Source: Limnoperna fortunei
Taxonomy: Eukaryota; Mollusca; Bivalvia; Mytilida; Modiolidae
DNA: 64,000 nucleotides
Assembly (NCBI GenBank): GCA_944474755.1
Contig: OX104118.1
Coordinates: forward strand, 75,657,865 to 75,721,864
Reading direction: 5' to 3'
Under the pieces are notes generated by a model. It searched no databases. It saw only the letters and a list, made by a program, of their open reading frames with translations, and was not told the DNA's origin. Position 1 is the stretch's first letter, and the number at the start of each line of letters is the position of its first letter. Positions 29,101 to 64,000 of the stretch are shown here, piece after piece. The position numbers and the translations under genes are program-made.

Positions 29101-32100
29101 ATGACAGGTGTCAATATCTGAGTGAGGAAGGTTATTAAAACCGCCTGCTGTGTAAACATGATCGTTAATTAATTAATCTATGTTAATTATCCTATTAACC
29201 TGATGTTAATTGGAGGTAGAACCCCAGCTGTTTTATAGCTTAAATAAACAAGGTTATCAGTGACATCGGTGTTGTATTCAAACTCACCTGTTGCCTATGG
29301 CTATAGTAACATCTACTTATAAGGTTAATTAGATGAAAAATTTAATTGACATAGACAAATAATGTTAAAACAATCCAAAATCTTTATTTCAATATCATAG
29401 TCTTTTAGTAATGATAGCCGTAGTTTTTTTAACAGGAAGTAGGGAGATAAATCATGTAAAACTGGAAATGGGTCAATTAGGCGTGAAATATTGGCTGCAT
29501 GGTGATAATTGATAATTATGACTTTAAATTTTACATTATGACTATTGACTTGATTGCAGATATCAGTATTTTCTCTGTACCAATGTAACTTTGGCTTTAT
29601 GAGAATAAAGATATAAAAAGTAAAAAAATAAATTATGTATCAAACATATATTTTGTTTTATTTTGTCCATTTACTTTTGTTCCTTAATTAAACATGCATG
29701 TTAAGGTACATTCATACAACGTATATAAATCAGGATGGCATTACAGATGGACAGCATAACAATACATGCATTTTAGAGAAAAAGTGTCATTTCCAGTACT
29801 TTGATCGAATCACGTGATATTCAGTCGCCATATTGATTATATGTATATTATCTGACATTGTATGGCATAAAGAAAAAAGTGATATAACTTTGTCATACAT
29901 TAATATTTTTTCATAAAACTTTTTGAATAGCGTTTCAATTACGTTAAACATACAGTTTTGAACAAAAAACATTAACTTTAATGCGTTTTTCGGTCATTTT
30001 TTTATTGTTTTCGGTTATTCCTCTTGTTTTCAGTTGTTTTCTGTTATTCGAGCTACCGAGAAAGCTATGATTTTGTGTAAAAAAGAAGGTTACGATTTAT
30101 TCGAAAATGATACTTTGTGGTCAATTAATATTTTACAGATAAGTCATCTTACGATATCCTTTTAATTTAATGGGAATGCAGTGTTGTGGAGTGACTGTAC
30201 AAAAGCCGTAAACAATGTTGTGAAGATTGCATTTCAACATGCACGAACTGATTTCTGCCAGCATAAATGGGAACATAAAACAAGTGGTAGGTACATGGTT
30301 CTAAGATAATTACAGGAAATCAATTGTACATAAATTTATATTAACTTTATCACTATAGTCAATGTCCGGAAGCTACAATAACCACAGGGGCTTGTAAAAA
30401 TAGATTTATTTGCACTTTCGAATTTGTTATTGTGTGCGAGAAGGGAAAAACAGAGTCTATACCCACAAACTTTAAAAAAAAAATATTACTTTACCCATAT
30501 CTACACGGGTTTGTAATTATTTCTGTTCAGAATTTAATAATCTACATGAAAAACCCTACCTTTATGTTTCTAATGCCATTTAACTCTCAAATTTTAATAA
30601 TCTACCAGTTTGAAACGAAACGGACAAGAACCAACACACACACAAAAACCAATCTTAATTAAAATTAAATCTTTCACAAGCTCCCCCTTTTTGTTATTGT
30701 CGTTTTGAAGATCTAACAACATCCCATTACAGGTCATCTCAGGTTGAACTTCTGTATTGACCAATCAATTTTTATTGCCATTTTTGCTTAGGCACCATTA
30801 AGCTTGAAACCTATGCCCTGTTCACTTAAGGTAAAATAAAATTAAAAATAAAAATAAATGCCTACCTACCTACCCTATTTTTTTCCAAACATGTAACAGG
30901 AAACACACATACCTTTTTATTTGTCCTTATAAATATAAAGGGACATTGTAGGCAAAAAACAAGCTTTAATTTTTCAAATATTTTCTTTTTTATTTCAGAA
31001 TATTGCCTTTTATTGTATCCCAATACTACAGAAATAATGTTTGTTAAGCCATTAATGGGAAGTGCAGCGATTTGAGATTAACAATTAAACTGTCATCAAT
31101 GCCAAAAAGTAGCAGGTAAGACATTAGTCTTTGCATGATTTTTATGTTGCTTGCAACATGTTGCAAAGAGACATAAGTGTCACTTTAGCTATATGCTTTG
31201 TCCTGTGGCATCACAATAACTTTCGTCACAGTTTTCTGGGCAACTTCATGCCGCAGCCTCTTGATATTTGGCATGTAGCTTTGTCCTATAAAAGTTTATG
31301 CTGCCACTAGAAAGTAATACCTATGTCTCGTCTTTAATGACTTTTCGTCTCTGGCGAGACAAAATGAAAGTACAAATTACAATGTATTTATACACGGTAA
31401 CTAGACCTGTTTTCATTGCTAGTGACACAAGTAAATCAAGAAATCTGTGAGTCAATGCTAATTAATGTACCACTGTTTTCGATAAAATCTATATACATGT
31501 ACTATATGTGTTCAGTATCTACTTCCTGTTTGATGTAGAGTTATGGACTTATAAATGAGTTATATTTGGAAACAAATGTAATCCCAGATGAAGGGAACCA
31601 CAATGATAAAAATTATACAGGGGATATAAAAAAAATTGAACAATGTGTCCATGGGACACGGATGCTAAAGGAAGTCCCAAACAGGATGTAGTTGTCCAAC
31701 AGGTCTGAAAGTCGCTTAGGATGTACAACTTGTGATACTTAACCACCCTGCCAAATTTCAAATTACTAATGTACGGTTTCTGAGAAAAGCTTGAGGGAAA
31801 GTTTCACTCATGTTAACACATTTTCATTTCGGCCCAGTGGCAAACGGGAAGTAGTTGTCCGGCAGGTCTGAAAGTCGCTTAGGACGTACAAATTGTGATC
31901 CTGAACCACCCTGCCAAATTTCCAATTGTTCAGATGTACATTTTCTGAGAAAAGCTTGACAGAAATTTTCATACTCATGTTAACACATTTTCATATCGAC
32001 CCAGTCGCAAACAGGAAGTAGTTGTCCGACAGGTCTGACAATTCGTAAGGACATGAGTAAAACTAAATGCCCCCCCCCCCCCCCGACATGTCGCGGGGGC

Positions 32101-45900: not shown

Positions 45901-48900
45901 TCCAACTTTGAAGTTAAACTCGGAAAAATTTTATTATCCATAAAACAAAAAATGTTCACCTTTTAATTTTATCCAAACATTTTTAAGACATCATTTCTCT
46001 TTTATTTTCAGAAAAGACACAACATGGAGTATACAGTGAAAAATCTTGAAGAAGAATAATAAAAATTACAATCAAACCGATGGGAGAAATTTCTCCCATC
46101 CTGAATAGCTAAATTCTAATTGATGGGATTTCTCCCATAATTCTAATACTGAATATCTAAAATCAAACTGATGGGAGAAATTTCTCCCATGATAGCAATA
46201 TTAAAAATTAAAATCAAACTGATGGGAGAAATTTCTCCGATGATTGCAATATTAAAAACTAAAATCAAACCAATGGGAGAAATTTCTCCCACGCTTTTAA
46301 TACTTAGAGTTAGAATCAAACCGATGGGAGAAATTTCTCCCATGATTGTGATTCTAAAGATTTAACATCAGACCGATGGAAGAAATTTCTCCCACGATTT
46401 TAATACTAAACAGTTAAAATCAAACGATTGGAGAAATTTATCCCACGTTTTTATCATCCTGGTGATACAATTTATATACAAATATACGCCAAAGGTCAAA
46501 TTTTGTGATTTCTGTCATGGTTTATATGTAGAATTATTAAAATCCACTCTCATAAGGGATGCACTTTTCACTTTCGCCTGGAAAAGGGAATCAGTAGAAT
46601 TTCCCTTTTTATTTTGGACAGCGTTATAAGATCTGTTGAAATTTGAAGTATTTTTAAAATTTAAAAGTTAATAAAACATGTGAACATATGTGATTGGCAG
46701 TTATTTGATTTAATATATTAATGTAATAATTATGTCAGTGAATTTATAGTAACTACTGGTTGATCCTATTCCATCTGGAAGTAATTATACTAAATGCCAA
46801 ACCCCCTTGGAAAAAATTGTATTCTTGCATTTTTTATTATTCCATATTTTACCTTTTTATAATGAAAATCCAGTAGAAAAAATTTAGATATGATAACCTA
46901 TCCATGTTTTATATTATACTTCTGTTGTTTAATTGTAACAAATCGCCCTTGACTTTTGCTATGGGAATTTAACATAATAAGTAAGCCATTTCTGTTTCTA
47001 AAGGGACCTAGCAGTCTGCTTTCGTGACATTCAATGGTATTCAGACAAACCGCGACACTTTTCCCGTCCTTAACTGCAGACGTCATCACCCGAAGGATAT
47101 CAAATAGATAACACTCGATTGTTCCTAAAGTAAAATTCTGTTCTAATTAAGGTCAAATTTTAGTATGGAAAATAGCTGTCAAAATTTAAAAACTGACATA
47201 TTTCAAAACTCTGAATATCTCGAGGAACTAATTGTTGATTTCAAAAAGTACTCTTCTTGATCTACAAAGGAGCATAAGCTGAACCATGCACGGTAAGCAG
47301 TTTTCATTTGTTATGCATAAAACCCTCTCAAAATTACAATCACTTGTAGTATAGTTTGGTATAATCCTGTTAACAGCAATATCGGGGATTTTCCTATACC
47401 TTTTTTCAAACTGGGAAAATTAAGACTTTAACTCTACAATTGGGAAAAATTCTAAAATTCTGAATAAAGTAAAAGCATTGCTTTTTAACATCTTGTATTA
47501 TAGTGAAAATTTTTCTTTGTCTGTTAATCAACTAATTGATTAAGTTGTATTTCACATTGTGCAATTCAATTTTGAATATTACTGTGGAGTCAGGCTGCCG
47601 CTTCATTCCAAATGTTTTCCTCAGACTTATTCTTTTCTCAACAACATTATTAAAACCCAAAACGTGCCCATAATACTGGTAATAGACATTGTGAATATAT
47701 AAGTAGTAAATTGCAAGATACAATTACTTTTTAATATTCGTGTAGGTGTAGAAAATTCTGCGACTTAAAACATTAAAGTTTCTTACATCCTACCAGAATA
47801 CATGTATTAGCATAACACATGCAAGCTCTAATTTTAACTGGTCACTGTAAAGATTGAAATAGATACCAGAGACAGTAATTACAACCAAAGTTTACATATG
47901 TGACAGTAACATTCAAAATTGAATTTGCACAACGTGAAATTCTACTGAAGTGGAAAGATGGTGCATTATACTAAAATCCAGCATATTTTGGTATTAAAAA
48001 ATTAAATGTTGACCCATATAGCCGTGCAGCCATATTCTCAAAAATCGTAAACTTACTCTTACGTGTAAAGATAAGATAGTCGTAACTTTACGTTTACGTC
48101 TACGATTGTTCGTATTCTCGAAAGTAATCACAGTTTTACATGTAAAATAGCAATCGTAAATCTTACGTTTTGCACGTAGCATTATCACGCATGCTCAGTT
48201 ACTTCTTTCACTTTGGAAAAAAACGTATTGAAAGAGAAATAATTACCTCAAAGTACTTAAATTATTACAGTTTTTTTAATTGCACAACCTCACAAACAAA
48301 TAAATAAATAAATAAATAAATAAACAAACAAACAAACAAACAAACAAACAAACAAACAAATAAATAAATAAATAAATAAAATCATGATATTAATTGGTGT
48401 GTTGCATAATTTTGAATATGTGTGTTTTAAAAAGTAATCTGTCAATTTACCATAACGTGCAACAAGACCTTTTTTAAGGTTACATTTCTTCAGTGTAGAA
48501 ATTTATGAGTAGTTTCGTGTTATAATAAAGCAATAAATAACCTAATCCCATTTTAACATAAATAAAACAGCATGATGTAAAATCGCAAATCATATAGGAA
48601 ACGTTTAATTTCCGGAACGTTTTTTCATAAATTCGGTTGTTGTTTCTTTCTTTTAAAATTATACATTTTTGTAAGAGTTATTCCCCATGAGTAACACATT
48701 TTTCAAAATATTTGCAAATTTTGAATGTTTTTTTCGTTGTTCTATGTCACGTGCAACAAAATCAATGATGCTAAGTAGTGAATGGCTTGAAAAACGATTT
48801 CTCTTTTCAAAATTATGAGGGACGCTAGGACTTACGAGCGCTCTGGAGCAGACGTAAGTTTACGAGCAATTTTACACGTAACTTACAACTACGAATTTTT

Positions 48901-54900: not shown

Positions 54901-57900
54901 TGACCTGTATTTTCTACCTTTTGGTGAATCAATTCTAAATACAGATAACAGCTGTTTATAAAACTGCTGCAGTCTGTATTATTTAAGCTCTTTGTCACTA
55001 ATAACTGGACATTTTAATTGCTGCTACTCATGTGTGACTCAGTTAAATTTAGACTTCTTACTTGGCAGATTGTCACAGAGTGTACTGCAGGTGAATCATG
55101 TTGGTTCGTTTGTGAAGCATACTCTGTTTAGTGGCTGATAAAAAAATTTATTGTTACAGCTTGAGATTTTCTGGAGACGAGCTCTGTATACAGACAACCT
55201 AAAAATCCATTGTTTGGTCAATGCAGATCTCCTGGATTATGATGTCAGTGACAAGGGAGAGAAATCACTGGAAATACATATAAAGAATGCTGAGTCTAAA
55301 GGTATAAACTGTTTTATTAATCTATTTTGTTTATCGGTAAGTTTTAGTCTTTACAAGTATTTAGGCAAGTTTTCTTTACATATCTTATTGTGTAAGAATT
55401 TTTTCATAAATACTTATGTTAATTTACAATTTGGTGAGATGTTCAAAGTTTTTTTCTCAGTTTCTAAGTTGATGGTCTTTGTTATACCCCTGCTTCGAAT
55501 AAGAGGGAGGTATACTGGTTTACCCCCGTCTGTCCGTCCGTCCTTCCATCGGCAACATAACTTTCCTAACAGTTTTCTCAGCAGCTATCTATCACAACCA
55601 CTTTTATATTTAAAAATTTTAAATTTTATATGTGACATTACCATGTCGTCCTATATTGCGAGTACCAATTTCAGGTCTGTCGCATATCTACTTCCTGTTT
55701 ACCAACTTAATCAATTCAACGATGTAAATAGCGGGGTATACTGAGTGAGCAGTAGCTCACAGATAACTAGTTTAATGATGTTTTACTCCACTTTCAGCAA
55801 TTTTTCAGCTATATCATGGTGACCTGTGGAGGAAGGAGTACCCATTGAGAACCTCTAACTTTTGGCAGGAAAACTGGCAATCCTTGTCAATTAAAGTTGG
55901 AATCCAACACAGCCCCAGTTAGTGTTGCAATTAACTTGCAGTAATATGAAACAATTATGGAGTCTTAACTTTTTCTTTTTCTTTAGGTAAGGCATACAGC
56001 CTGGTTGTTATTTGTAGCAGTGAAAATGAATTCAAGTCTAGAATTGTGGCTGCCCTTGACAAATACCACAGACCACAGTTGACTACTGATGTTGCAACTG
56101 TTAGGAAGTACTTGTTGACAAAGCTGACAGTTGATAAGTTAGTTGCTGGCACAATACCTGCTTCAAAAGTGGACTTTGAAAGGTAAGTTATTTGTTGTCA
56201 TGGTTCTGAAACATTAGTTATTTTGTTTTTATGGTTCTTTAAATATACAGCAAAATTTTTAGTAAAGTTGTGACCAATTTGACCTCATCTGTTGGGTCTG
56301 ATGAAAGATGGGTATGTGTCCAGGTGGTCTGAATCATCTTTTGGTTTCCAGACTGTTGACTTGAAATTTTCAATCAAGCTTATGACAAATAAAATCTAGG
56401 TTAAGTTTGAACTTGTGATATCCACTTATCTTTTCTTAGTTATATGACTCTTTATGAATTGGAAAATGATATGTTTATTAGTTTCCAAGCGTTTGTGCAA
56501 TGTCTTAACATAAGATTGACTTGAAATATTATTACTAGTTTAAATTGATGAAATACAGTTAAAGTTAAATTTTATATATCAAACATGCATGGTTTCCATA
56601 TTATGCCATAGGTGCAAAATGATGTTTTATTATCTCCATTTAAAACTTTAAGTTAAAATTTTAAAACTAGACAAACAGATGAATTGAATAAAAGCTTAAA
56701 AGTTGTCTTCAACTACTTCCTTAATATATAAAAAAAAATACTAGCAATACTATTACCTTTAGTAGGTTGCAGATATAAAGCAGAAACTGCCTTTAACTCA
56801 AAGCATCCCACTTTCCCTTTAAGTTGGTTCCCACTTTTTAGTTGGGTTCATGTTTTACATCTTTTGCACTATGTGTTTGTTCTGGTTATTTTCTTTCTTC
56901 TTTTTTCAATTTGTGGCCACATGTTTATCTGTTCAAATGTTGACTTTCAAACAAATATTTTAGGAGCAGTGTACGAGTTGTCAAGTCCTGGAGAGCAGGG
57001 GTGGGAAAGTCTTTGTATAAGAGAAGAATGGTGGCTGAGTTGCACAAATTGGTTCAAAATCCTACAAGAAGACAATCTACTAATATCACAATTCCTCTAC
57101 ATGAGAAGACTCTTAATATTGATAGTATCATGGAAGTATTGTTACAACAGATAATGCCTCCAAGGTGTAATGAACCCAGAATCTTCCATATTGACATCTC
57201 ACACGAGGTTAGTAGATAAGTTTATAATGCCTCCAAGGTGTCATGAACCCAGAATCTTCCATATTGACATCTCACACGAGGTTAGTAGATAAGTTTATAA
57301 TGCCTCCAAGGTGTCATGAACCCAGAATCTTCCATATTGACATCTCACACGAGGTTATAGTAGATAAGTTTTGTCCATAAACATTTACTAATTAAAAAGT
57401 TTTGACATCTTTGATGAGACACATTTGATTCCAACAAATGGTTGTGTGTGATAGGTTCAACACAATTTTTATCAGTTCTTTAGCTTTATCATGGCATCCA
57501 ATTTTCATAAGGGGAACATGCCATGGTATCTTGTAAGAATTAGTGACCTTTGGATGGAAATATGGTAACATTGTGTGTTGAATTCAATATTTTAATTGTT
57601 TAGTTATTTAGGGTCATCAATAATTGTCAACATTTTTCACAAGTTTGCCAAGAGCACTCTTTTTGTAAATGCCATCCCCACTCCAAAAGAGTACATCAGA
57701 AATTTTCCACGTTTCGGGATTTTACAATTTGGTAGTATAAAACAAAATACTGGTAATTGAGGTTTTAAGCGCCAATTGCCAATGTTACCAGTATGTCACG
57801 CTCTTCAATTTGAATCAGTTTTGTTCTGTGATCATCTTATAGTTCTTAGAAACTAGACTGATCAACATTAAGCTTAATTTGAATGTTGCACAATGCATGC

Positions 57901-60900
57901 TTTTTGTCATTAATTTAAAAAGTATTTTGCTTTTTCTTTAGTTTGTTGTCTCTTTGACCAACCACTTTACTATTTCTTTAATTCAACTTAAGAATATATA
58001 ATAGCAGAACAGTGTTCATATCAAACATCCTAAAAGCAACAACAAAAGCGGGAAAGTATTAACAACAAAACTAGAAAGAATTTGTTGTAAGATTTTGATT
58101 ATTGTCTCAAATAAAAACATAAAAATGTTAAATTTGGTTTAACATTTGTATACAAAAACAAAATTAACTACTGAAAAAATTTAACCAGACATGATTTAAT
58201 TTTAGGTTCAAGAAGGAGTAGATGCTTTACTGTTTCAACTGTTGATATTAGGATGCCTAACTCACAGCTCCGGTCAGGTCTGGAGGAGGTCTGAACTAGA
58301 CTATTATATAATAGAATCTATGCCGTTACTGATCAGGGACTCTGATACTCAGGTATTAGACTACATTAAAATAAAATCTATGCCATAACTGGTCAGTGAT
58401 ACAGATACCCAGGTAATAGACTACTGTATCATAGAATCTATGCCATTACTGGTCAGTGATACAGATACCCAGGTAATAGACTACTGTATCATAGAATCTA
58501 TGCCATTACTGATCAGAGATACAGATACCTATGTAATAGACTACTGTATCATAGAATCTATGCCATTACTGGTCAGAAATACAGATACTCAGGTAATAGA
58601 CTACTGTATCATAGAATCTATGCCATTACTGGTCAGAAATACAGATACCCAGGTAATGGACTACTGTATCATAGAATCTATGCCATTATTGGTCAGAAAT
58701 ACAGCTACTTAGGTAATAGACTACTGTATCATAGAATCTATGCCATTACCAGTCAGAAATACAGATACCCAGGTAATGGACTACTGTATCATAGAATCTA
58801 TGCCATTACTGGTCAGAAATACAGATACCCAGGTAATAGACTACTGTATCATAGAATCTATGCCATTACTGGTCAGAGATACAGATACTTATGTAATAGA
58901 CTACTGTATCATAGAATCTATGCCATTACTGGTCAGAGATACAGATACTCAGGTAATATAATACTATATCATAGAATCTATGCCATTACTGGTCAGAGAT
59001 ACAGATACCCAGGTAATAGACTACTGTATCATAGAATCTATGCCATTACTGGTCAGAAATACAGATACCCAGGTAATAGACTACTGTATCATAGAATCTA
59101 TGCCATTACTGGTCAGATATACAGATACCCAGGTAATATAATACTATATCATAGAATCTATGCCATTACTGGTCAGAGATACAGATACCCAGGTAATAGA
59201 CTATTGTATCATAGAATCTATGCCATTACTGGTCAGAGATACAGATACCCAGGTAATAGACTACTGTATCATAGAATCTATGACATTACTGGTCAGAGAT
59301 ACAGATACCCAAGTAATAGACTACTGTATCATAGAATCTCTGCCATTACTGGTCAGGTATACAGATACCCAGGTAATAGACTACTGTATCATAAAATCTA
59401 TGCCATTACTGGTCAGGGATACAGATACTCAGGTAATAGACTACTGTGTCATAGAATCTATGCCATTACTGGTCAGAGATACAGATACTCAGGTAATAGA
59501 CTAATGTATCATATAGTCTATGCCATTATTGGTCAGAAATACAGATACCCAGGTAATAGACTACTGTATCATAAAATCTATGCTATTACTGGTCAGGGAT
59601 AGAGATATCCAGGTAATAGACTACTGTATCATAGAATCTATGCCATTACTGGTCAGAGATACAGATACCCAGGTAATGGACAACTGTATCATAAAATCTA
59701 TGCCATTACTGGTCAGAGATACAGATACCCAGGTAATAGACAACTGTATCATAAAATCTATGCCATTACTGGTCAGTGATACAGATACCCAGGTAATAGA
59801 CTACTGTATCATAGAATCTATGCTATGACTGGTCATAGATACAGATACCCAGGTAATAGACTACTGTATCATAAAATCTATGCCATTACTGATCAGAGAT
59901 ACAGATACTCAGGTAATAGACTACTGTTTCATAAAATCTATGCCAATACTGGTCAGTGATACAGATACCCAGGTAATAGACTACTGTATCATAAAATCTA
60001 TGTCATTACTAGCACTTAAAAATTAGTTGTCAAGTAATCAAGGTGATATTATAGCCTAGTTGGAAAATAATGATATGACAGAAACTCAGTGAGTTGTCCA
60101 AAGAGGTGTCAAACTTTTCTGTCAGGTTTTTTTCAAAAAGGGTTTCAGAAGAGTTCGAAAAAAGTACACTTAATTAGAATTTGAGTATGTTGTATTTCGC
60201 AGCTTGTCAAGTAGAAGGAGCTTTACTGAAGTCAATATCCGTTACTTCCTAAAAGTATGGTGTATTTATATTCAGTGTAATATTACGCACACTGCCTGCA
60301 CTTAAAGGTGGTAAAAAGTCACCACACTCAGAAAAGATACTGCTCTTGACTTTGTCTGTAGGTATTTTGCCTTCTTTGGTAATGTAGTATACCACCTCAA
60401 CTTTAGACAGTATGTGTATATTAACACATAATATATGTCATTACATGCTAGGGATACAGATACCCAGGTAAAAATCAAGTGAATAGTTTTGAAGCCTTTA
60501 AAATTCTATTTACAATGTTCCCTCTTCACTTGATAACAAATCTAATTCCTGCTTTACAAGTAAGTAAAACTGATGTACATACCACTATATTATTAAAGTT
60601 TTAAAAATAAAACAAGATATGTGTCATTTATATGATACAATGTCAATGTTTTGTCATTTATTTTTCAAATTAAAGCATGGTGACACAATGTTTACTCCAC
60701 CTTCCTCGTCCAATAAGAATTGGACACCATGATTTAGCTGAAAAATGCTGAAAGTGGCATTAAACCTTATTCAAACAAAAAAATTAGGCTTATTTATGAT
60801 TATATACATGTTTAATTTTATCTGAAACCCCTGATCCATAGGAACCAAATGTGGCCTATATATCCTATGGGTGTGGTCTATTGTCCCAATTTTCTAACAA

Positions 60901-63900
60901 ACAGAAAACCTTTGCTATGAAAATGACATGATCTGTTCAGATTTCAACTGTCACTGAATCATATAGTGCTGTTCAACTTAAAATCATGTTTTTTGCTGTA
61001 TTTACAAAATAGGTTAATTTTAACCAAAAAAAATCTTTTGAAAATTTCTTGGTTAACATGGTTTTAAGAAGGGTTTACCCTATCTTGTTAAATGATTTTT
61101 CTTTTTTTACTTGTATTATGAAATAATAATTTAAATTTCCTTTTAGGCTGGAAAGCTGAGATGTCTTCACCATTGTCTAGACATATTACCTCATGTTACA
61201 TGTAGATCACCACAGGAAAGTTTAGACATTTTATGTGGTATCAGGAGACCTCCAGATTATACAGACCATGACAGGCTGTTTGACAATATAGAGTTTAAGA
61301 GTGCTACTTTCCAGAGGCCTTATTGGTATCTGAAGAGCCTGACTGCAGTAAATCCTAACATCCCAGAAGGAGAACAAAAATGTCTTGTTATTTTACTCGG
61401 GTAGATCATAACTTATCATTTGTCCTGTCTTTATCCAGTATTGTAACCTTACATCGATATATATTGTCACATAATGAGAGGATGATCATATTGATTGTGA
61501 GGTCACTACATCTAATGTTAGGGTCAAAATTACCAATTATATACAGAAAAGGTTTCTGAATAATAATTTAGTAAACATGTATGAACATATTGTCAAATAT
61601 ACTAGTGGATAAATACTAAAAATAGACAGAAATTATTGTAATTTACAGATAATAACTTCTAAACCTTACATGCAATTAGAATTATTATTGCTTTACTTGG
61701 TGATAGAAGCTACTTTGATATATGGTTACATAAGCTGTAAAGTGTGTGGGGTGCTGTGAATTTGCTCACAAAGTTATTTTTAGACTTATTACACTGGGTA
61801 TTTGTGGATATCCTTTGTTTATGCTTATGGTATATTTACCCTTAATCTAGTTAAACTTAATCTCAATCAACTTAAATGTTGTTGGTACTCTGTGGTTTAT
61901 GCATGGGTTTGTCAGTTCACAGTGTTATCTCACACAGTGTTTCTGCACATGGTTGTTGGTTATCTCTATTGTTTATAACCAAGGTTATTTGTCCCCAAGT
62001 GTCCATGCCAAGCATTGATTCTCTCTGTATTTATAATCAAGATTGTTCGTTCTTCATGTGTTTATGCCCAGGTATGTTATTACTCTCCAGTTTATGTCCA
62101 GGGTTATTAATACTCACTGGTTTGTGTCTTGGTTGTTGGCTCTCTGTGTGTTTATACCAAGGGTTGTCTGACTTTACTTTTAAGGTTGTTAGCGTCTTAA
62201 TGTACAAGATGGTTGGTTCCCATTGTGTTTATGCCATGGCTCTGTGTTTATGTGCATGGTTGTTGTTTCCTCTGTTCTTATGCCCAGGGTTGTTGGTCCC
62301 CAATGTGTTTATGCCTAGGGTTGTTTTTTCCCTCTTTTGTTATGCCTGGGTTGTGGATATCCCTCTGTTTTTATGCAAGGGTTGTGGGTATATATCCACT
62401 TTTAGCCGAGTTGTATGGTGCAGTTAGCGGGCAGATGAGCAGGGAAAATAGGGTATATATTGTTTAATCAACTCCTCCTACAGTTTTCTGAAACGCAACA
62501 GAAAGATTGCACATGTATTGAAGTTGTGCACTGGCAATATGGAATTGATCGAGGATTTTTTCTCTTTTTTTCCAGATGTGAGTCATTCAAACTTTTGTGA
62601 TTTTTTTTTGTTGGTTCTGTCTGTGTTTGTTCCCAGGGTTGTAGACACTATTTGGGTTTATGTTTTGGGTTGCTTGTTCTGTCAAATAATTATCTGATAA
62701 AACTGATTGCCTCATTATAGCTAAAAGGTGACTTGTTGCAAGATAAATAAGCGCTTTGTGTATAAGGTGAATAATTACAAATAATGCATGAAAGTATTTA
62801 GATTTAATATAGTTTAAAAGGGTGTAGCCACATGAATACTAAAATTTAATTTGGCATTTGCTTTAGATTTTGTGGAATTAGAGATCCATCTTGGTCAGAG
62901 TTACATCATTTTGTCAGCTTCCTCAACAAACAGCTACAAGATTTTGAAGTGTCAGCTTTCTGTGGCCCAGCAGCAAGAGAAGACCTACCAGGATTTGATG
63001 TGTTTGTTCTTATATGTCTCATTCAGATGTCCAGAGTATGTTTCAATCTTAAGTACTGTTGTATGTAGTATCTATGTAGTAAAACATTTTTTATTGCTCA
63101 TTATAAAAAAACATTGGTAAGTTCTTTGTCCTTTGAAGTTCTGTTCCCAAAGAAATAGTTATCTCAATTCATTCAATATAGAAATGTTAGTTATTACTGA
63201 AAGAATCTACTTGGTGAAAAAACTGTTTTATAAATATTGGAATGGTACCCTGTATCACTGCTGGGGTAATTCAATCATTTGTGTAACGTTTACTAAAGTG
63301 CTGCACCTAGATATAATTGGCATTTCATTCAGAGAATCTTTGAGTTTAAAAAAAAGGAGTAAATTTACTAGAAGAATCATCAGTTTTTATCTCTCCTGCT
63401 TTATATCTTTCTATGCTTAAGCCCTAGGACCATCAGATTTGGTCCACTGGTAGCTAATGATGAGTACATGCCAGTCAGTCACCCTTCACCTGACCTTGAC
63501 CTCAAATTCACAGTCCAGTGTCTATGTTTTTGGATTTGGTCAATTCCTCAGTAACCATGCATGTTAGGATGACAATATTTGGTATATAGGTTGGCGATGA
63601 ATATTACATGACTGTCTGGTAGGTGTCACCTGATCTTGACCGCAATTTCACAGTCCAGCGACTATGTTCAAGTTTTTGGAGTATAGTTTTATTTCTCTGT
63701 GACCATGCATTGTATATTTTAAATTTTAACAATTTAATGCTTTTTATGTCATCCTCATGACATAATTTTTTTCGTTTCTGATGCAGGCAAGTGTCCACAC
63801 ATGTGATTTACCAGTACTATTATACAATTTCAAATGATTTTCATACTGATATGTAAAACTTAAAACAATAAGAAAACTAGAAAAAGTAAATAAAATTACT

Positions 63901-64000
63901 TTGATTTTATACTGTTAATATATATCAACAGGATTTTGCCACAAGGTCACTTATAATGAGTGAAGAGTCGCCGATACAGATGTTACAGAGACAAGTAATA
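4938..64000 (+). CDS. RNF213: RNF213 (mysterin)-like giant AAA ATPase / E3 ubiquitin ligase gene, partial at both ends
   Basis: RNF213 is a very large cytosolic protein combining a dynein-like AAA core with a ubiquitin ligase module. Vertebrate RNF213 acts on lipid droplets and coats intracellular pathogens. Nineteen exons were placed (4938-5124, 6308-6595, 7984-8567, 9197-9350, 9645-9865, 11338-11490, 13971-14132, 14522-15161, 49679-49874, 50170-50306, 51721-51795, 53296-53402, 55160-55301, 55987-56182, 56964-57207, 58206-58352, 61147-61400, 62867-63035, 63932-64000). All have GT-AG borders and compatible phases, and join to 1375 stop-free codons. Family signatures include VFVDLASISAGEGD, SHGSVEVSSLAQAEAIN, GEPNLIICP, SDEVLLCT, the Walker A RAGVGKSL, and CGIRDPSWSELHHFVSFLN. 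The segment before AAA3 normally contains the AAA1/AAA2 region, so the Walker A is probably AAA2. N-terminal exons and the later AAA and RING parts lie outside. Bivalves often carry several such genes, so orthology to a particular copy is unknown. Confidence 0.92.
5843..6263 (+). mobile_element. Pearl-like non-autonomous element in intron 1
   Basis: The element opens with a C-run/G-run hairpin (TATACCCCCCC to GGGGGGGTATA, 5843-5878), followed by a GTCTGTCTGTCCGTCTGTCC microsatellite. Two tandem core units of about 165 bp (about 5922-6088 and 6088-6250) share the stretch GACAGATTTTGATGAAACTT. It ends with a small hairpin, TGTGAGCGTGCTCACA. Hairpin, ACGG/ACAG-type microsatellite and tandem core match the Pearl elements described in bivalves, which are probably Helentron-related. 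No protein is encoded. Confidence 0.6.
6308..6595 (+). CDS. RNF213: RNF213-like exon 2
   Basis: The acceptor is TTTAATTTTAG and the donor GGTAAC (phase 1). About 95 codons, strongly helical and charged: KFLKNESLQLLHESIMVLEE, then LQAYLKTLPSIQKFLYFCF. The first two bases complete the codon begun in exon 1. The open frame runs past the donor to 6735, but the next exon only joins from 6595. Confidence 0.85.
6820..7505. repeat. 32-bp minisatellite in intron 2
   Basis: About 20 copies of a unit near GTAATGTCAGTAAACTTTAT followed by CAGTCAGTCTGT. Length variants carry an extra CAG or CAGCA before TAAACTTTATCAG. Degenerate copies trail on to about 7740. Confidence 0.95.
7984..8567 (+). CDS. RNF213: RNF213-like exon 3
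   Basis: The acceptor is TTTCACTTTAG and the donor GTAAGT (phase 0). About 195 codons begin ADTRHLEDKIRRLEKHLD. They contain VWTHALANWKDICQKLRKGS, matching the family's pattern of a Trp followed by a helical repeat and a short acidic loop, and end FELKGNFKQVKDIHRL. This is a long alpha-helical arm or stalk segment without enzymatic motifs. Confidence 0.9.
8679..9050. repeat. Dispersed repeat family A, copy 1 (intron 3)
   Basis: It begins at GGCCGAGTTGCATGG and contains GTTGCACATGTACTGAAGTT. A diverged same-orientation copy lies at about 62400-62600 (GCCGAGTTGTATGG, GATTGCACATGTATTGAAGT). There is no coding capacity. Confidence 0.7.
9197..9350 (+). CDS. RNF213: RNF213-like exon 4
   Basis: The acceptor is ATATATTTCAG and the donor GTGAGT (phase 1). 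It contains FIKCKPLVDWLRESMP, the conserved stretch just before the VFVDLASISAGE block. There are 51 codons plus one base. Confidence 0.9.
9645..9865 (+). CDS. RNF213: RNF213-like exon 5 (VFVDLASISAGE block)
   Basis: The acceptor is TTTTCCATAG and the donor GTAACT (phase 0). It encodes GLKELKVFVDLASISAGEGD, one of the most recognisable RNF213 family signatures, and ends with CQEVWKELAANPHLPDKL. With exon 4 it secures the gene assignment. Confidence 0.95.
9953..10570. repeat. Dispersed repeat family B, copy 1 (intron 5)
   Basis: It starts with a GTCTCGCATGAGAC dyad and a GAGGCGAGACG motif. Two sub-units of about 170 bp follow, containing GTAACCATGCATGGTAGGAT and TTTGGTATATAGGTTG. A second copy in the same orientation lies at 63405-63800. 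No protein is encoded. Confidence 0.7.
10571..11337. other. Intron 5 remainder
   Basis: AT-rich intronic sequence in which no gene, RNA or clear repeat was recognised. Confidence 0.5.
11338..11490 (+). CDS. RNF213: RNF213-like exon 6 (SHGSVEVSS block)
   Basis: The acceptor is TTTCTTTGCAG and the donor GTAAGT; both phases are 0. It encodes WLQTVQKSHGSVEVSSLAQA followed by EAINSKGIYQVG, a hallmark segment of RNF213 proteins. Confidence 0.95.
11650..12760. repeat. Degenerate tandem repeats and a SINE fragment in intron 6
   Basis: At 11650-11890 there are two diverged units containing CAAACAGTTGTTGTCC. At about 11905-12060 lies a plus-strand SINE fragment with a box-B-like GGTTCGAGTCTCACT and the downstream AATCTTAATTGACAAGG. 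At 12300-12740 there are three units of about 150 bp carrying GGGGCCAGTCTGGTCAAGG-type sequence. All are non-coding. Confidence 0.7.
12761..13970. other. Intron 6 remainder
   Basis: No gene was recognised. There is an A-run/G-run junction near 13629-13651, and a 31-bp sequence (ATCATGAAGTGTATAGCTCT) is present twice in tandem at about 13758-13820. Confidence 0.5.
13971..14132 (+). CDS. RNF213: RNF213-like exon 7
   Basis: The acceptor is ATTTTGCCAG and the donor GTAAGC; both phases are 0. It encodes YYKYEQLHDLQSRLMLVAGK, then AEKGKDDVDRFML, the conserved helical segment after the SHGSVE block. Confidence 0.93.
14522..15161 (+). CDS. RNF213: RNF213-like exon 8 (largest exon)
   Basis: The acceptor is TTTATTTCACAG and the donor GTAAAT (phase 1). 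Its 213 codons begin ILDAVVRLGNIYTKLLEEGC. They include WLDYINKKREEYYCLNFFTI and DQMVILQQELVKLG, both characteristic. A stretch near the end, MATAGYPEGLAMEALKYIE, is UBA-like. A stop follows eight bases past the donor, but exon 9 restores the frame in phase 1 (G|GA). The next intron is unusually long (34.5 kb). Confidence 0.94.
15232..16450 (+). repeat. Left inverted arm of the 31.4-kb structure
   Basis: A terminal block (15232-15400) is followed by eight units of about 50-60 bp centred on GGGAGAAATTTCTCCC (about 15410-15770). Three to four diverged units of about 180 bp follow (about 15840-16430), with motifs such as AAAATGTGACGGAAAAT and GGCATGATCATAC. Compared with the right arm it lacks roughly 200 bp just inside the palindromic array. 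Apparent reading frames here (MGEISPIGLI repeats) come from the minisatellite. Confidence 0.9.
16451..20130. other. AT-rich intron sequence without recognised genes
   Basis: Nothing recognisable as a gene or RNA. A G-run sits at about 18959-18970. A short open frame on the minus strand at 17979-18221 has no recognised similarity and no supporting context. Confidence 0.5.
20131..20161 (+). other. Potential G-quadruplex tract
   Basis: Five runs of three or more G (GGGGGGTGGGGATGGGGAGG continuing GGG, then GGTGGG) lie within about 30 bases with loops of one to two bases. This satisfies the usual G4 pattern on the + strand, which is also the transcript strand of the host gene. Confidence 0.7.
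20360..20720 (-). pseudogene. Decayed Tc1-like transposase fragment
   Basis: Read on the minus strand, the fragment shows a helix-turn-helix segment (QQYGVHKSTVDRLLGHLRA), then TGKVADRFRS and a pattern ending ATETA. After frame changes comes RRPFHYPHLASRRRQ, which echoes the RRPxxxPxLTxRHRQ segment of Tc1 transposases. Frames are broken, and no catalytic DDE region was found. Confidence 0.6.
21460..23400. repeat. Diverged tandem/dispersed repeat zone with a (TTGA)-headed repeat
   Basis: Degenerate units of roughly 200-300 bp share phrases like CCAATTTCTATTGAAATC and ACAAAATGGC. Inside, about 22240-22680 holds a dispersed repeat that starts with a TTGA microsatellite and GTTTGCTTTACGTCCAGCGA. 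Relatives lie at about 38866-39250, 41101-41300, 42890-43260 and 43560-43890. No real gene was found; open frames here follow the repeats. Confidence 0.6.
23455..23710 (+). mobile_element. tRNA-derived SINE, full length
   Basis: The head carries an A-box-like TGCCGAGTGGTTAAGG (23463-23478) and a B-box-like GGTTCAAGTCTCAC (23527-23540), as in a Ser/Leu-type tRNA. The body contains AATCTTAATTGACAAGGAAT and CGCCATGATATAGCTG, and the tail is AAACAAACAAACAAA. Other copies or fragments lie at 11905-12060, 24297-24420, 36395-36470, 38255-38445, 51855-52050, 52138-52402, 55765-55935 and 60690-60785. Confidence 0.85.
24297..24420 (-). mobile_element. SINE fragment (3' part)
   Basis: The reverse strand carries the tail (TTTGTTTGTTTG seen on +), CAGCAATTTTTCAGC and GAGGAAGCCGGAG. 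The tRNA-like head is missing. Confidence 0.7.
24521..24659. repeat. MITE-like imperfect hairpin
   Basis: Arms beginning GTTACTAACAGGCTTAATCT on the left and ending GAATTAGCCAGTTCGTAAC on the right pair along most of 139 bp. The centre is CGAGACCCGTAGGGTCG. Confidence 0.7.
24974..25135. repeat. MITE-like long hairpin
   Basis: A palindromic element of about 160 bp. The left arm (AGAAATAATTCACGGAGGCT, then TTTTACCACGGGATGACCAT) is mirrored by the right (ATGGTCACCCCGTGGTAAAA, then AGCCTCCGTTAATTATTTCT). A central CACTCGCTATCGCTCGGGAT segment forms the loop. Non-coding. Confidence 0.8.
25783..25990. repeat. AAGTATACTT palindromic minisatellite, left array
   Basis: Irregularly spaced copies of the self-complementary decamer AAGTATACTT and derivatives such as CAAGTATACTTGAAGTATAC. 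Because the unit is palindromic, both strands look alike. Confidence 0.9.
26743..28111. mobile_element. Mutator-like (MULE) non-autonomous element, 1.37 kb
   Basis: Terminal inverted repeats of about 270 bp: the left starts GGGTACCACGAATAACAG and the right, read in reverse, GGTAGCTCGAATAACAG. They remain alignable to the ATATGGCGACTGAATATCAC segment. The 10-bp sequence GAGAAAGCTA flanks it on both sides (26733-26742 and 28112-28121), a target duplication of the 9-11 bp size typical of Mutator-like elements. No transposase is encoded. A short open frame at 27841-28026 (-) is terminal-repeat sequence. Confidence 0.72.
26965..30861. repeat. Near-identical 1.95-kb tandem duplication
   Basis: Copy 1 is 26965-28914 and copy 2 is 28915-30861. 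The repeat begins within the left terminal repeat of the Mutator-like element (CAATATGGCGACTGAATATC) and ends at AAAAATAAATGC. Differences noticed are one 4-bp indel near 27490/29440 and a few substitutions, so the duplication is recent or an assembly artefact. Confidence 0.95.
30862..31650. other. Intron sequence with minor repeats
   Basis: No gene was recognised. There is a CCTACCTACCTACC run at 30860-30875 and a TCTCTGGCGAGAC motif near 31340 resembling the start of dispersed family B. Confidence 0.45.
31650..32105 (-). repeat. Tandem repeat of about 170 bp ending in a C-run hairpin
   Basis: Two and a half units share GCAGGTCTGAAAGTCGCTTA and CACCCTGCCAAATTTC. The block ends in a C-run, CGACATGTCG and GGGGGCATA, that is, the hairpin end of a Pearl-like element read on the minus strand. 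Confidence 0.7.
32517..32862. repeat. AAGTATACTT palindromic minisatellite, right array
   Basis: A longer and more regular array than the left one, with units such as ACTTCAAGTATACTTTAAGT and inserts CTAAGTATAAAACC. It lies just inside the right end (AATTTCCGTAA) of the 7.1-kb segment. Confidence 0.92.
33468..34966 (+). mobile_element. Tc1/mariner element, 1.5 kb, inactive
   Basis: Inverted ends share CCATAAGTTAAGCAACACC (left about 33475-33493, right about 34942-34960 in reverse). Both outer ends abut TA dinucleotides (33466-33467 and 34967-34968), the expected Tc1/mariner target site. The internal transposase gene is broken. Confidence 0.85.
33727..34671 (+). pseudogene. Tc1-like transposase pseudogene
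   Basis: It starts near 33727 but meets a stop after four codons and further stops and frame changes. Recognisable pieces are RRPLKRPLLTQRHRQACSEW (about 34056-34120) and, in another frame from 34333, FMYDNARPHRAAI and SPDMNPIEHLWD. The second Asp and the final Glu are separated by 34 residues (DD34E). The first catalytic Asp region is degraded. It is a dead copy inside the 1.5-kb element. Confidence 0.85.
34967..36690. other. Intron sequence, mostly unrecognised
   Basis: No gene was recognised. A minus-strand SINE head fragment lies near 36395-36470 (GTAAGACTCGAACACAAAACC and GTGTTGACAGGCACGTGATC). Confidence 0.45.
36690..37640. repeat. 21-bp minisatellite zone (ATAATGACAAAGTATCATCAC)
   Basis: The regular core at about 37023-37380 consists of ATCATCACATAATGACAAAG-type 21-bp units. 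On both sides, degenerate relatives (CATATAATGATGGAACCA) extend over almost 1 kb. The length is seven codons without stops, so several frames on both strands stay open by chance. Confidence 0.93.
38255..38445 (+). mobile_element. SINE fragment (head truncated)
   Basis: It carries ATTGACAAGGAGTGCCAATT, TTTTCCTACAGAAGGTCG, GGCGTCATGATATAATTG and the AAACAAACAAACAAAC tail. The tRNA-like head is missing. Confidence 0.75.
38866..39250 (+). repeat. (TTGA)-headed dispersed repeat copy
   Basis: It begins TTGATTGATTGATCGAATGT, contains GAACGTCCGCGAGCAATATT and ends with GGCAGCTCTGTGGGTCAAGC, parallel to the copy at 22240-22680. Confidence 0.7.
39754..39819. repeat. Perfect hairpin with 30-bp arms
   Basis: Positions 39754-39783 and 39790-39819 are exact reverse complements with a six-base loop (GACATG). 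A third, single-arm copy with two differences follows at about 39934-39961 (CATCCTCACAAGTAAGTGTT). Confidence 0.95.
40258..40400 (+). repeat. Purine-only tract with GGGAGGGAGAAAGGAGCAG repeats
   Basis: About 140 bp that is almost all A and G on the + strand, with three imperfect units of about 25 bp. Such tracts can form triplex or G-quadruplex structures. Sequence on either side (about 40120-40800) belongs to diverged dispersed repeats with TTTTGGCCCTGCA phrases. Confidence 0.8.
41043..41155. repeat. Compound microsatellite
   Basis: AAAG, then GA, then TTGA repeats in succession. The TTGA run is the head of a further copy of the (TTGA)-headed dispersed repeat, which extends to about 41300. 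Confidence 0.9.
41203..41562 (-). other. Unrecognised 119-codon open frame
   Basis: The stretch FLEQCIYKTSPTEDEMISSF followed by LGYLPIVDRECVGAALNDF has protein-like composition, and its last 30 or so codons overlap a repeat. No family was recognised, and there is no start context, intron signal or neighbour to support it. It could be a fragment captured by a mobile element. Confidence 0.25.
41591..41832. repeat. Palindromic minisatellite TTGCGTTTAATCGCAATAAT
   Basis: About eleven units of roughly 20-25 bp alternate TTTTGCGTTTAA and TCGCAATAAT, each a small dyad (ATTGCG/CGCAAT). This is the third palindromic array type within the 31-kb structure. Confidence 0.9.
42890..43300. repeat. TTGA/TTTG microsatellites with two (TTGA)-headed repeat starts
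   Basis: A (TTGA)n tract passes into (TTTG)n and back to (TTGA)n (about 42890-43010), then again at 43064-43103. Each is followed by the same repeat body TTTGTTGCAAGYAGTATTT and ATATTTAGGACGAGAAAAAC. Confidence 0.92.
44570..44609. repeat. Inverted repeat containing CRE-like TGACGTCA
   Basis: TCATGTGACGTC and GACGTCACATGA form 12-bp arms around a short spacer. The right arm contains the palindrome TGACGTCA, a CREB/ATF site consensus. Whether it regulates anything is unknown; no promoter was recognised nearby. Confidence 0.55.
44930..46625 (-). repeat. Right inverted arm of the 31.4-kb structure
   Basis: From outside in: a terminal block (46480-46625); eight palindromic GGGAGAAATTTCTCCC units (46072-46450) in the same order as on the left; a linker of about 230 bp partly absent on the left; and about four units of about 180 bp (44970-45720) with TGTATGATCATGCCATATT and CTACTTCCTGTTT. 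The inner repeats resemble Pearl-like cores. Confidence 0.9.
46626..48026. other. Intron sequence right of the large structure
   Basis: AT-rich, with no gene or clear repeat recognised. Confidence 0.45.
48027..48972. mobile_element. 0.95-kb non-autonomous DNA transposon with inverted ends
   Basis: Both ends begin CAGCCATATTCTCAAA followed by AATCGTA-type sequence in inverse orientation. Sub-terminal TTACGT/ACGTAA motifs repeat through both arms. No transposase is present, and no convincing target duplication was found. The AAAT/AAAC microsatellite at 48296-48379 lies inside. Confidence 0.75.
48296..48379. repeat. AAAT/AAAC compound microsatellite
   Basis: (AAAT)n, then (AAAC)n, then (AAAT)n, a symmetric compound array within the 0.95-kb element. 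Confidence 0.95.
49679..49874 (+). CDS. RNF213: RNF213-like exon 9
   Basis: The acceptor is AAATGTCTTCAG and the donor GTTGGT (phase 2, a weak donor). It encodes GIVWCMDNEDEYKPIVENVP, then VVFEGWTQTNQSLSSVTGHL. The first bases complete the Gly codon begun in exon 8 across the 34.5-kb intron. Confidence 0.85.
50170..50306 (+). CDS. RNF213: RNF213-like exon 10
   Basis: The acceptor is AATTTTGTAG and the donor GTAAAT (phase 1). It encodes KKLIKALEDLWETFLTSISS, then SVSDYLSVEHLGMILNRLNE. The join AG|T with exon 9 gives a Ser codon. Confidence 0.88.
50307..51720. other. Intron 10, no recognised feature
   Basis: AT-rich intron; nothing recognised. Confidence 0.5.
51721..51795 (+). CDS. RNF213: RNF213-like exon 11 (GEPNLIICP)
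   Basis: A 75-bp exon with acceptor AATTTTTTCAG and donor GTAAGT (phase 1). It encodes ETFEVNRTFLPCFKLGEPNL and IICPQ, matching the family pattern of Gly-x-Pro-Asn-Leu-Ile followed by Cys-Pro. Confidence 0.92.
51855..52050 (-). mobile_element. SINE copy, minus strand, internally deleted
   Basis: It reads from the tail (GTTTGTTTGTTTGAATG on +) to the head. The B-box complement is GTGAGACTTGAACTCCCAA, and the A-box region is near 52019-52045 (CCTTAACCAGTCGGCCACGA). The middle is shortened. Confidence 0.8.
52138..52402 (-). mobile_element. tRNA-derived SINE, minus strand, near full length
   Basis: B-box complement GTGAGACTTGAACTT at about 52313-52327 and A-box complement CCTTAACAGCTTGGCCACTG at about 52375-52394. 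The tail complement is TTTGTTTGTTTGAATGGTGT at its low-coordinate end. It lies in tandem with the copy at 51855-52050. Confidence 0.85.
52403..53295. other. Intron 11 remainder with a diverged tandem pair
   Basis: No gene. Two diverged units of about 150 bp near 52680-52960 share AGATTTTGTT and ACTATAAAATGA phrases. Confidence 0.45.
53296..53402 (+). CDS. RNF213: RNF213-like exon 12 (SDEVLLCT)
   Basis: The acceptor is AATTTTTACAG and the donor GTAAAT (phase 0). It encodes SEIYNTLLSVYSHEDDTPLP, then QSDEVLLCTPQTTLDM, a conserved RNF213 segment. Confidence 0.95.
53630..54720. repeat. Tandem repeat, about 300-330 bp unit, intron 12
   Basis: Three diverged units share TGGTCCTCTACAAAGTTTGA, TTCTGATTGGCTGAATTTTA and CCAAGATGGCCGCCA. 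Minus-strand open frames here are by-products. It is related in style to the zone at 21460-23400. Confidence 0.8.
55160..55301 (+). CDS. RNF213: RNF213-like exon 13
   Basis: The acceptor is TATTGTTACAG and the donor GTATAA (phase 1). It encodes LEIFWRRALYTDNLKIHCLV, then NADLLDYDVSDKGEKSLE. In the family this follows the LCTPxTT segment directly. Confidence 0.94.
55483..55760 (+). mobile_element. Pearl-like element, single core (intron 13)
   Basis: It has the same plan as the element at 5843-6263: an opening hairpin (TATACCCCTG to GAGGGAGGTATA), a GTCTGTCCGTCCGTCC microsatellite, a core with CTACTTCCTGTTT, then GGGGTATACTGAGTGAGC with a terminal hairpin (GTGAGCAGTAGCTCAC). The core is present once and resembles the 180-bp units of the large arms. 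Confidence 0.62.
55765..55935 (-). mobile_element. SINE fragment
   Basis: The minus-strand copy is recognised by CAGCAATTTTTCAGCTATAT and AGGAAAACTGGCAATCCTTG on the + strand. The head is incomplete. Confidence 0.7.
55987..56182 (+). CDS. RNF213: RNF213-like exon 14
   Basis: The acceptor is CTTTTTCTTTAG and the donor GTAAGT (phase 2). It encodes GKAYSLVVICSSENEFKSRI followed by VAALDKYHRPQL. The VVICSxEN motif is a strong family match, a beta-strand just before the ATPase P-loop. Confidence 0.95.
56183..56963. other. Intron 14, no recognised feature
   Basis: AT-rich intron; nothing recognised. Confidence 0.5.
56964..57207 (+). CDS. RNF213: RNF213-like exon 15 (Walker A, probable AAA2)
   Basis: The acceptor is AAATATTTTAG and the donor GTTAGT (phase 0). 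It encodes VRVVKSWRAGVGKSLYKRRM, whose RAGVGKS is a P-loop with the Lys at 57007-57009. The exon ends RIFHIDISHE, a hydrophobic strand with an Asp that may be the Walker B equivalent, although the usual second acidic residue is Ser. In vertebrate RNF213 the P-loop upstream of the MSRDFAT region belongs to AAA2, which binds ATP structurally. Assignment to AAA2 is by position only. The exon's last 57 bases and its donor are copied twice downstream. Confidence 0.94.
57151..57372 (+). repeat. 73-bp tandem triplication of exon 15 end plus splice donor
   Basis: Units start at 57151, 57224 and 57297. Each contains the last 57 bases of the exon, the donor GTTAGTAGATAAG and a few intron bases. Copies 2 and 3 differ from copy 1 at one exonic base (GTGTCATG for GTGTAATG), and copy 3 has three extra bases at its donor (GTTATAGTAG). 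Reading past the first donor meets TAA at once, so downstream donors would truncate the protein. Confidence 0.95.
57440..58205. other. Intron 15 remainder
   Basis: A badly diverged SINE relic may lie at 57440-57560 (TTTAGCTTTATCATGGCATC). Nothing else was recognised. Confidence 0.4.
58206..58352 (+). CDS. RNF213: RNF213-like exon 16
   Basis: The acceptor is TTAATTTTAG and the donor CAG|GTATTA (phase 0). It encodes VQEGVDALLFQLLILGCLTH, then SSGQVWRRSELDYYIIESMP, matching the family pattern after the P-loop exon. Its final 56 bases (from 58297) are the founding unit of a large tandem array. Reading through the donor hits TAA at 58386-58388 in the second unit, so this donor is taken as the true one. 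Confidence 0.92.
58297..60011 (+). repeat. 60-bp exon-derived minisatellite, 28 units in perfect register
   Basis: Twenty-eight consecutive 60-bp units lie between 58321 and 60000 with no length change. Consensus parts are GACTACTGTATCATAGAATC, TATGCCATTACTGGTCAG and ATACAGATACCCAGGTAATA. Each unit contains the 3' coding end of exon 16 (DYCIIESMPLLVRDTDTQ in the exon's frame) followed by a potential donor, CAG|GTAATA. The unit is 20 codons long, so long stretches remain open, which explains several apparent ORFs. It is not CRISPR, because units have no spacers. Confidence 0.97.
60434..60470 (+). repeat. Detached partial unit of the 60-bp array
   Basis: TATGTCATTAC, GGGATACAGATACCCAGGTA and the surrounding bases match the array unit about 420 bp beyond its end. 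The array's last partial unit at 59999-60009 shares the same TATGTCATTAC variant. Confidence 0.8.
60690..60785 (+). mobile_element. SINE 3' fragment
   Basis: CACCATGATTTAGCTGAAAA, GCTGAAAGTGGCATTAAACC and an ATTCAAACAAAAAAA tail; the head is missing. Confidence 0.7.
61147..61400 (+). CDS. RNF213: RNF213-like exon 17
   Basis: The acceptor is AATTTCCTTTTAG and the donor GTAGAT (phase 2). It encodes CLHHCLDILPHVTCRSPQES, then FKSATFQRPYWYLKSL, and ends EQKCLVILLG, matching the family segment that leads into the CGxxDPSW motif. The donor is not optimal, but the phase matches exon 18 (GG|A). Confidence 0.92.
61870..62400 (+). repeat. Degenerate minisatellite of about 35 bp, intron 17
   Basis: Diverged units around GTTGTTGGTYCTCTGTGTTT and ATGCCCAGGGTT, with stragglers to about 62680. 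They create long cysteine- and leucine-rich open frames that are not genes. Confidence 0.75.
62400..62600 (+). repeat. Dispersed repeat family A, copy 2
   Basis: TTTTAGCCGAGTTGTATGG, GGGAAAATAGGGTATAT and AGATTGCACATGTATTGAAG align with the copy at 8679-9050. Confidence 0.7.
62867..63035 (+). CDS. RNF213: RNF213-like exon 18 (CGxxDPSW)
   Basis: The acceptor is TTGCTTTAG and the donor GTATGT (phase 0). It encodes FCGIRDPSWSELHHFVSFLN, then KQLQDFEVSAFCGPA, and ends FDVFVLICLIQMSR. This is among the best conserved stretches of RNF213 proteins. Confidence 0.96.
63036..63404. other. Start of intron 18
   Basis: AT-rich; no feature recognised. Confidence 0.45.
63405..63800 (+). repeat. Dispersed repeat family B, copy 2
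   Basis: CTTAAGCCCTAGGACCATCA, GCCAGTCAGTCACCCTTCAC and TTTGGTATATAGGTTGGCGA parallel the copy at 9953-10570 in the same orientation. Confidence 0.75.
63932..64000 (+). CDS. RNF213: RNF213-like exon 19, cut by window edge
   Basis: The acceptor is TATATCAACAG. It encodes DFATRSLIMSEESPIQMLQR, continuing MSR from exon 18 to give the family's MSRDFATxSL motif. A possible donor (CAA|GTAATA) lies at the very end, so the exon may stop at 63994 or run on. Confidence 0.88.

Follow-up and report, generated by a model that had tools for sequence, protein, structure and literature searches.

A 60-bp tandem array spanning an exon end and its splice donor in a bivalve RNF213-like gene, probably a large mirage-type minisatellite

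When the end of an exon has been multiplied in tandem together with its splice donor, which of the copies still belongs to the gene, and what becomes of the others? This question is posed by an array at 58297-60010 of the 64,000-nucleotide stretch of DNA analysed here (the window), where a 60-bp unit takes in the last part of an exon of an RNF213-like gene. We propose that the array is, in all likelihood, a mirage-type minisatellite that is carried in the intron as a passenger. Below, we describe the gene and the array, ask which donor keeps the reading frame, and weigh the possibility that the copies do something for the gene.

Using tblastn and inspection, 19 homologous exons were placed in the window, and all of them (19/19) match the homologue P0002 in order. 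The gene extends past the window edge. The array exon is number 16 in window order, so the label "exon 16" used in the sequence-only reading of this DNA fits as a count within the window. Exon 15 (56964-57207, plus strand) was located by tblastn of Mytilus homologues and by its match to a solved RNF213; its start was placed by hand at an AG and its end at the donor, and it closes in phase 0 with ...HIDISHE. Exon 16 (58206-58352, plus strand) comprises 147 nt, has phase 0 at both ends, finishes with ...YYIIESMPLLIRDSDTQ and is followed by GTAT. It joins exon 17 (61147-61400, plus strand) in phase 0. Joined through the first donor of the array, exons 16 and 17 match the solved RNF213 6tay, which we take to be the mouse protein, at 4.1e-14; a longer gene model from the window does so at 4.8e-68.

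A protein search with exons 15-17, in which 189 candidates with lengths of 0.55-1.75 times 2466 residues were scored, yielded 35 homologues: 32 from named bivalves (13 of these from Mytilus), one from a frog and two without a name. The best are Mytilus proteins with 71-73% identity across the whole region, while P0014 reaches 76% over 60% of the region; the window is thus from a mytilid-like bivalve. No Pfam family was matched by exons 15-17. In the homologue P0009, the exon 15-17 block occupies residues 1031-1227, followed by AAA at 1461-1587 and the RZ finger at 3576-3619, and the catalytic AAA modules, the RZ finger and the RING of the gene would fall beyond the window end. P0001 (M. coruscus) contains the exon 15-16 block twice (residues 305-510 and 773-941), which suggests that part of the gene was duplicated in tandem or that gene models were merged. 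In symbiotic bivalves, RNF213 is reported to have expanded (PMC9993606).

TRF describes the repeat at 58297-60010 with a period of 60, 28.6 copies, 92% matches and 0% indels. A 22-base pattern of the donor region, allowed up to 3 mismatches, has 27 hits across the window; the expectation from 100 shuffles is 0.00. We count 28 whole units (58297-59976), 26 of which are distinct and each of which is exactly 60 bp long. A unit combines 56 exonic nucleotides with GTAT or GTAA and thus spans the exon-intron boundary including the splice signal. Both the origin of the unit from the last 56 nt of exon 16 (58297-58352) plus its donor and the strict 60-bp length of all 28 units had been put forward by the sequence-only reading, and both are borne out, the former by the exon homology with GTAT directly after it, the latter by the count and the TRF result. 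Its copy number of 28 is correct for whole units and leaves out a split 29th, the two parts of which, 33 nt at 59977-60009 and 27 nt at 60445-60471 (both plus strand), add up to exactly 60 nt. The second part carries a donor-like CAG|GTAAAAATC and probably represents the start of the intron as it was before the array arose.

Unit 1 (58297-58356, plus strand) consists of 56 exonic nucleotides and GTAT; its donor, CAG|GTATTA with the GT at 58353, would be the only productive one. The following units 2-28 (58357-59976, plus strand), all of which have GT in the donor position, are presumably intronic. The description of the array as about 28 CAG|GTAATA donors in a row holds for much of it: among the 29 donors the motif is exact in 20 and reads CAG|GTAATG in three, while donor 1 (CAG|GTATTA) and donor 29 (CAG|GTAAAA) differ and four donors (units 4, 7, 10 and 17) carry changes in their exonic bases.

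Which of these donors keeps the protein open? Use of any of donors 2-29 retains unit 2 and brings in a TAA at 58386, so that the protein stops 11 residues beyond exon 16. AAA and the RZ finger would be missing from it, as both come later in P0009. The in-frame stop in unit 2 is thus present as had been claimed, and the accompanying statement that only the first donor leaves the frame open stands as well, since all later donors run into this TAA and the homologues are co-linear through donor 1. The exon 16-17 join via donor 1 is supported by the solved RNF213 and by the bivalve homologues, and we infer that transcripts actually use it. The junction is reached by 33 of the 35 homologues, none of which contains a unit-sized (20-residue) insertion, the largest being 11 residues; M. 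coruscus P0005, for example, reads DSDTQAGKLKCMHHCLDILP across it. P0008 (M. edulis) is without the residues directly after exon 16, probably through a fault in the gene model. For M. galloprovincialis, the predicted protein P0014 apparently continues past exon 16 into VVVSSWVSRSQYRKCLETIRT, unlike the 60-bp unit, and in this one gene model the tail may be read-through into an intron without the array.

Unit 1 and the remaining units differ in the changes they have accumulated. In its exonic part, unit 1 departs from the array consensus 10 times. These differences are only partly polarised; 7 of them are synonymous, where 24% would be expected (p 0.003). Units 2-28 hold 38 distinct variants (8 synonymous, 25 missense and 5 stop), spread over codon positions 1, 2 and 3 as 15, 11 and 12. 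Here, the synonymous share (8/38) fits neutrality (p 0.85), and there are more stops than expected (p 0.013); synonymous expectations were in all cases derived with a simple transition weight of 2. The synonymous contrast between unit 1 and the array is significant (Fisher p 0.006). Column 4 of the peptide encoded by the unit (LDYY) is Tyr in unit 1 and in all 34 of 34 aligned homologues, and Cys in the array consensus. Judging from these patterns, unit 1 looks to behave like an exon and the remaining units like an intron.

A second, smaller array straddles the donor of the preceding exon. It lies at 57151-57371 (plus strand) and consists of three copies of a 73-bp unit formed by the last 57 nt of exon 15 and GTTAGTAGATAAGTTT, with the donor GAG|GTTAGT and donor GTs at 57208, 57281 and 57354. 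Copies 1 and 2 are one base apart, and a 2-bp insertion in copy 3 makes its donor GTTATA. An in-frame TAA stands directly after donor 1 and is met by the later donors. Since 73 bp, the unit of this sister array, is not divisible by three, no coding reason need be sought for the 60-bp unit of the exon 16 array, whose own divisibility by three carries little weight. The idea that arrays prefer donors was rejected, as two donor-straddling arrays compare with 1.76 expected under random placement of the 27 arrays in the window. Acceptor-straddling arrays number 0 of 27 in the window, against 1.79 expected under random placement (P 0.13). For both comparisons, the 27 arrays were obtained by merging 43 TRF rows by hand, and exon limits were partly set by hand.

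The window contains further repeats. In TRF, indels amount to 3% in a 32-bp array, 0% in a 63-bp array and 0% in the 60-bp array across its 28 units. Beside the 32-bp array this absence of indels stands out, which speaks against a plain passenger, though the 63-bp array matches it. A 32-bp minisatellite of 21 copies at 6822-7502 lies downstream of an RNF213 exon, within the intron, and matched no mapped exon edge. At 26962-30861, inside a 34-kb intron, a 1.95-kb direct tandem duplication (26962-28915 and 28912-30861) is 99.6% identical between its copies; it either arose very recently or is a product of the assembly. Towards each end of the long intron there are palindromic ATGGGAGAAATTTCTCCCAT repeats (15405-15761 and 46128-46445), and the segments 15232-15858 and 46625-45965 are 84% identical in inverted orientation. 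By eye, pieces of open reading frames on the minus strand at 152-1854 resemble a Tc1/mariner-type transposase. No Rfam family reached its gathering score within 56000-64000, and an exact 29-base pattern of the unit core had 0 matches in viral and prokaryotic contig collections, which has little bearing on animal DNA.

The two parts of unit 29 are separated by 435 bp (60010-60444, plus strand), bounded by a 10-bp direct repeat ATGTCATTAC at 60000-60009 and 60435-60444. This stretch is probably an insertion, and a clean insertion would be the simplest account. The bases before the second 10-bp repeat resemble the 60-bp unit (85% over 20 nt), which makes an eroded separate unit an alternative to a clean insertion. 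A known element was considered and rejected, as the stretch is without inverted termini and without a second copy in the window, where matches beyond it are limited to chance matches of 13-16 nt.

The array carries marks of exchange among its units. The mean difference within the core is 7.6%, compared with 14% between unit 2 and the core and 20% between unit 1 and the core, and unit 29 has 7 differences from the consensus; inner units are thus homogenised and edge units most divergent, as in a mirage. Units that lie three places apart are the most alike (a value as low arose in 1 of 1000 shuffles; 8 distances were tested), and in line with this units 12 and 15 share a trio of variants. A tandem duplication probably took in the final 56 nt of the RNF213 exon together with the 4 nt that open the intron, and then expanded to about 29 units. 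As the first copy would have kept the exon complete and its donor functional, all further copies would fall in the intron, and use of donor 1 would remove them and leave the protein unchanged. Inner units would then have spread, kept alike by unequal exchange or slippage, and drifted as sequence that codes for nothing. Copy number probably differs among individuals, and the array is probably harmless and without a particular function, although the stronger, unproductive donors may cost the gene some mis-splicing and nonsense-mediated decay.

Tandem repeats that span exon-intron boundaries have been described as "mirages" in the amphioxus genes for Adh3, the globins BflGb6 and BflGb9, PGBD5 and troponin C (PMC3087553, PMC3902484). 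They are reported to show edge exclusion, homogenised interiors and allelic differences in length (PMC3087553), and in PGBD5 a 60-bp array has 2 or 7 copies and a 108-bp array 3 or 6 copies depending on the assembly (PMC3087553, PMC3902484). With these cases, as they are described, the bivalve array shares a repeat that crosses the boundary together with its splice site, a gene that is co-linear via the authentic site, and a homogenised interior with excluded edges; the PGBD5 array is also alike in its 60-bp unit, which abuts a 5' splice site. It differs in having about 29 units in RNF213 of a protostome, compared with the 2-7 units given for the globin and PGBD5 cases, and in being known from DNA alone, whereas RNA is reported to back the Adh3 and globin mirages. 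Among the matches listed in our literature search, no mollusc array of this type was reported. The bivalve array thus appears to be a sizeable case of a repeat type already known from amphioxus. It also resembles accounts of intron birth by tandem duplication, where a duplication across an exon-intron boundary is likewise said to copy splice signals; there, however, a new intron results, whereas the bivalve copies would only lengthen an existing one.

Before adopting the passenger reading, several other explanations have to be weighed. The units might be translated now, or have been until recently, as a 20-residue repeat extension of RNF213 (VIDYCIIESMPLL), an idea encouraged by a unit of 20 codons and by 22 of the 28 units being free of stops in the exon frame. 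This is extremely improbable: besides the TAA of unit 2 there are six further stops, giving seven in six of the 28 units (2, 7, 12, 15, 21 twice, and 26), and it was rejected on these stops, together with the neutral variant spectrum and the 0 of 33 homologues with a unit-sized insertion. A protein search with the repeat peptide, which covered lengths near 120 aa only, gave no candidate sharing three words. That the assembler expanded or misplaced the array is very improbable as well. Assembly faults are possible in a window that holds 200 N and the nearly identical 1.95-kb duplication, but most units of the array are distinct, with private variants scattered among them, the unique flanks are sharp and unit 1 is continuous with a conserved exon; the copy number could still be wrong.

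More is at stake in the suggestion that the array is a splicing switch, in which stronger downstream donors compete with donor 1 and array length sets the ratio of intact to truncated or NMD-targeted RNF213. Scored with an assumed donor matrix and U1 5' end, donor 1 reaches 4.35, the 23 core donors (CAG|GTAATA/G) 7.33-7.72 and donor 29 7.56. Donor 1 is therefore weaker than 25 of the 28 others, only those of units 4, 10 and 17 scoring lower, and in a local folding model, which is weak evidence, it is predicted to be fully paired and is the most paired of all 29. Together, its lower score and its pairing mean that exclusive use of donor 1 is not predicted from site strength alone. Yet it is not weaker than two other donors of the gene (4.31 and 4.15) and ranks 11th of 13 scored. 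For the gene's other donors (13 of 18 exon ends were covered), the GT with the highest score up to 12 nt from where homology ends was taken, a choice that flatters them. Donor upkeep gives a mixed picture. Half of the unit varies across units 2-28 (30 of 60 sites), but no change touches GTAAT, the intronic half of the donor. No invariant run is longer, and of the 60 circular 5-nt windows this one alone is free of changes (0/5 sites variable, p 0.026 for five given sites, chosen post hoc). The whole 9-nt donor, however, is not significantly more conserved than the rest of the unit (3/9 variable sites vs 27/51, Fisher p 0.47), and the four exon-side changes degrade donors. A switch would have a ready outcome, as any later donor meets the early stop and the protein would be cut off ahead of its AAA and RZ-finger domains. 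A possible precedent is the human ABCA7 intronic VNTR, which is alike in being an intronic tandem repeat that could influence splicing of its host gene; its length is reported to correlate with exon skipping, a measured effect that sets it apart from the bivalve array, and the abstract is silent on an exon-end origin of its unit (PMC5954066). The amphioxus data point the other way, since the Adh3 and globin results suggest that regular splicing is undisturbed, although use of cryptic copies is named as possible (PMC3087553, PMC3902484). On balance, we consider a switch unlikely. The sequence-only reading, which had suggested that the array could act as a donor decoy array or length-variable switch, is therefore followed in the exon-end origin and intron-like behaviour of the array and less so in its function, given neutral-looking coding changes and mixed evidence for donor upkeep.

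A bolder form of this thought, which is decidedly unlikely, is a copy-number-dependent brake on RNF213, with about 23 near-identical strong donors placed behind one weaker productive donor. If it were true, a longer array would lead to more transcripts ending at unit 2 and being destroyed, and the level of an immune ATPase would vary in a heritable or somatic manner. The unchanged GTAAT of units 2-28 would then be a mark of upkeep, and the smaller donor array at exon 15 would add another brake, in series with the first.

Taken together, we favour the passenger reading, in which a mirage-type repeat, found for amphioxus only among the literature matches listed, is now seen in a bivalve and with more copies than the globin and PGBD5 mirages. 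The locus offers a natural experiment on 5' splice-site choice, as 25 better-scoring copies lie downstream of the only productive and weaker first one. Junction counts would separate rules based on the first site transcribed, the strongest site and exon length. If donor 1 wins, order or position, or exon definition and length, would outweigh strength. If it does not, the gene would pay in truncated transcripts, and array length should matter for RNF213 output.
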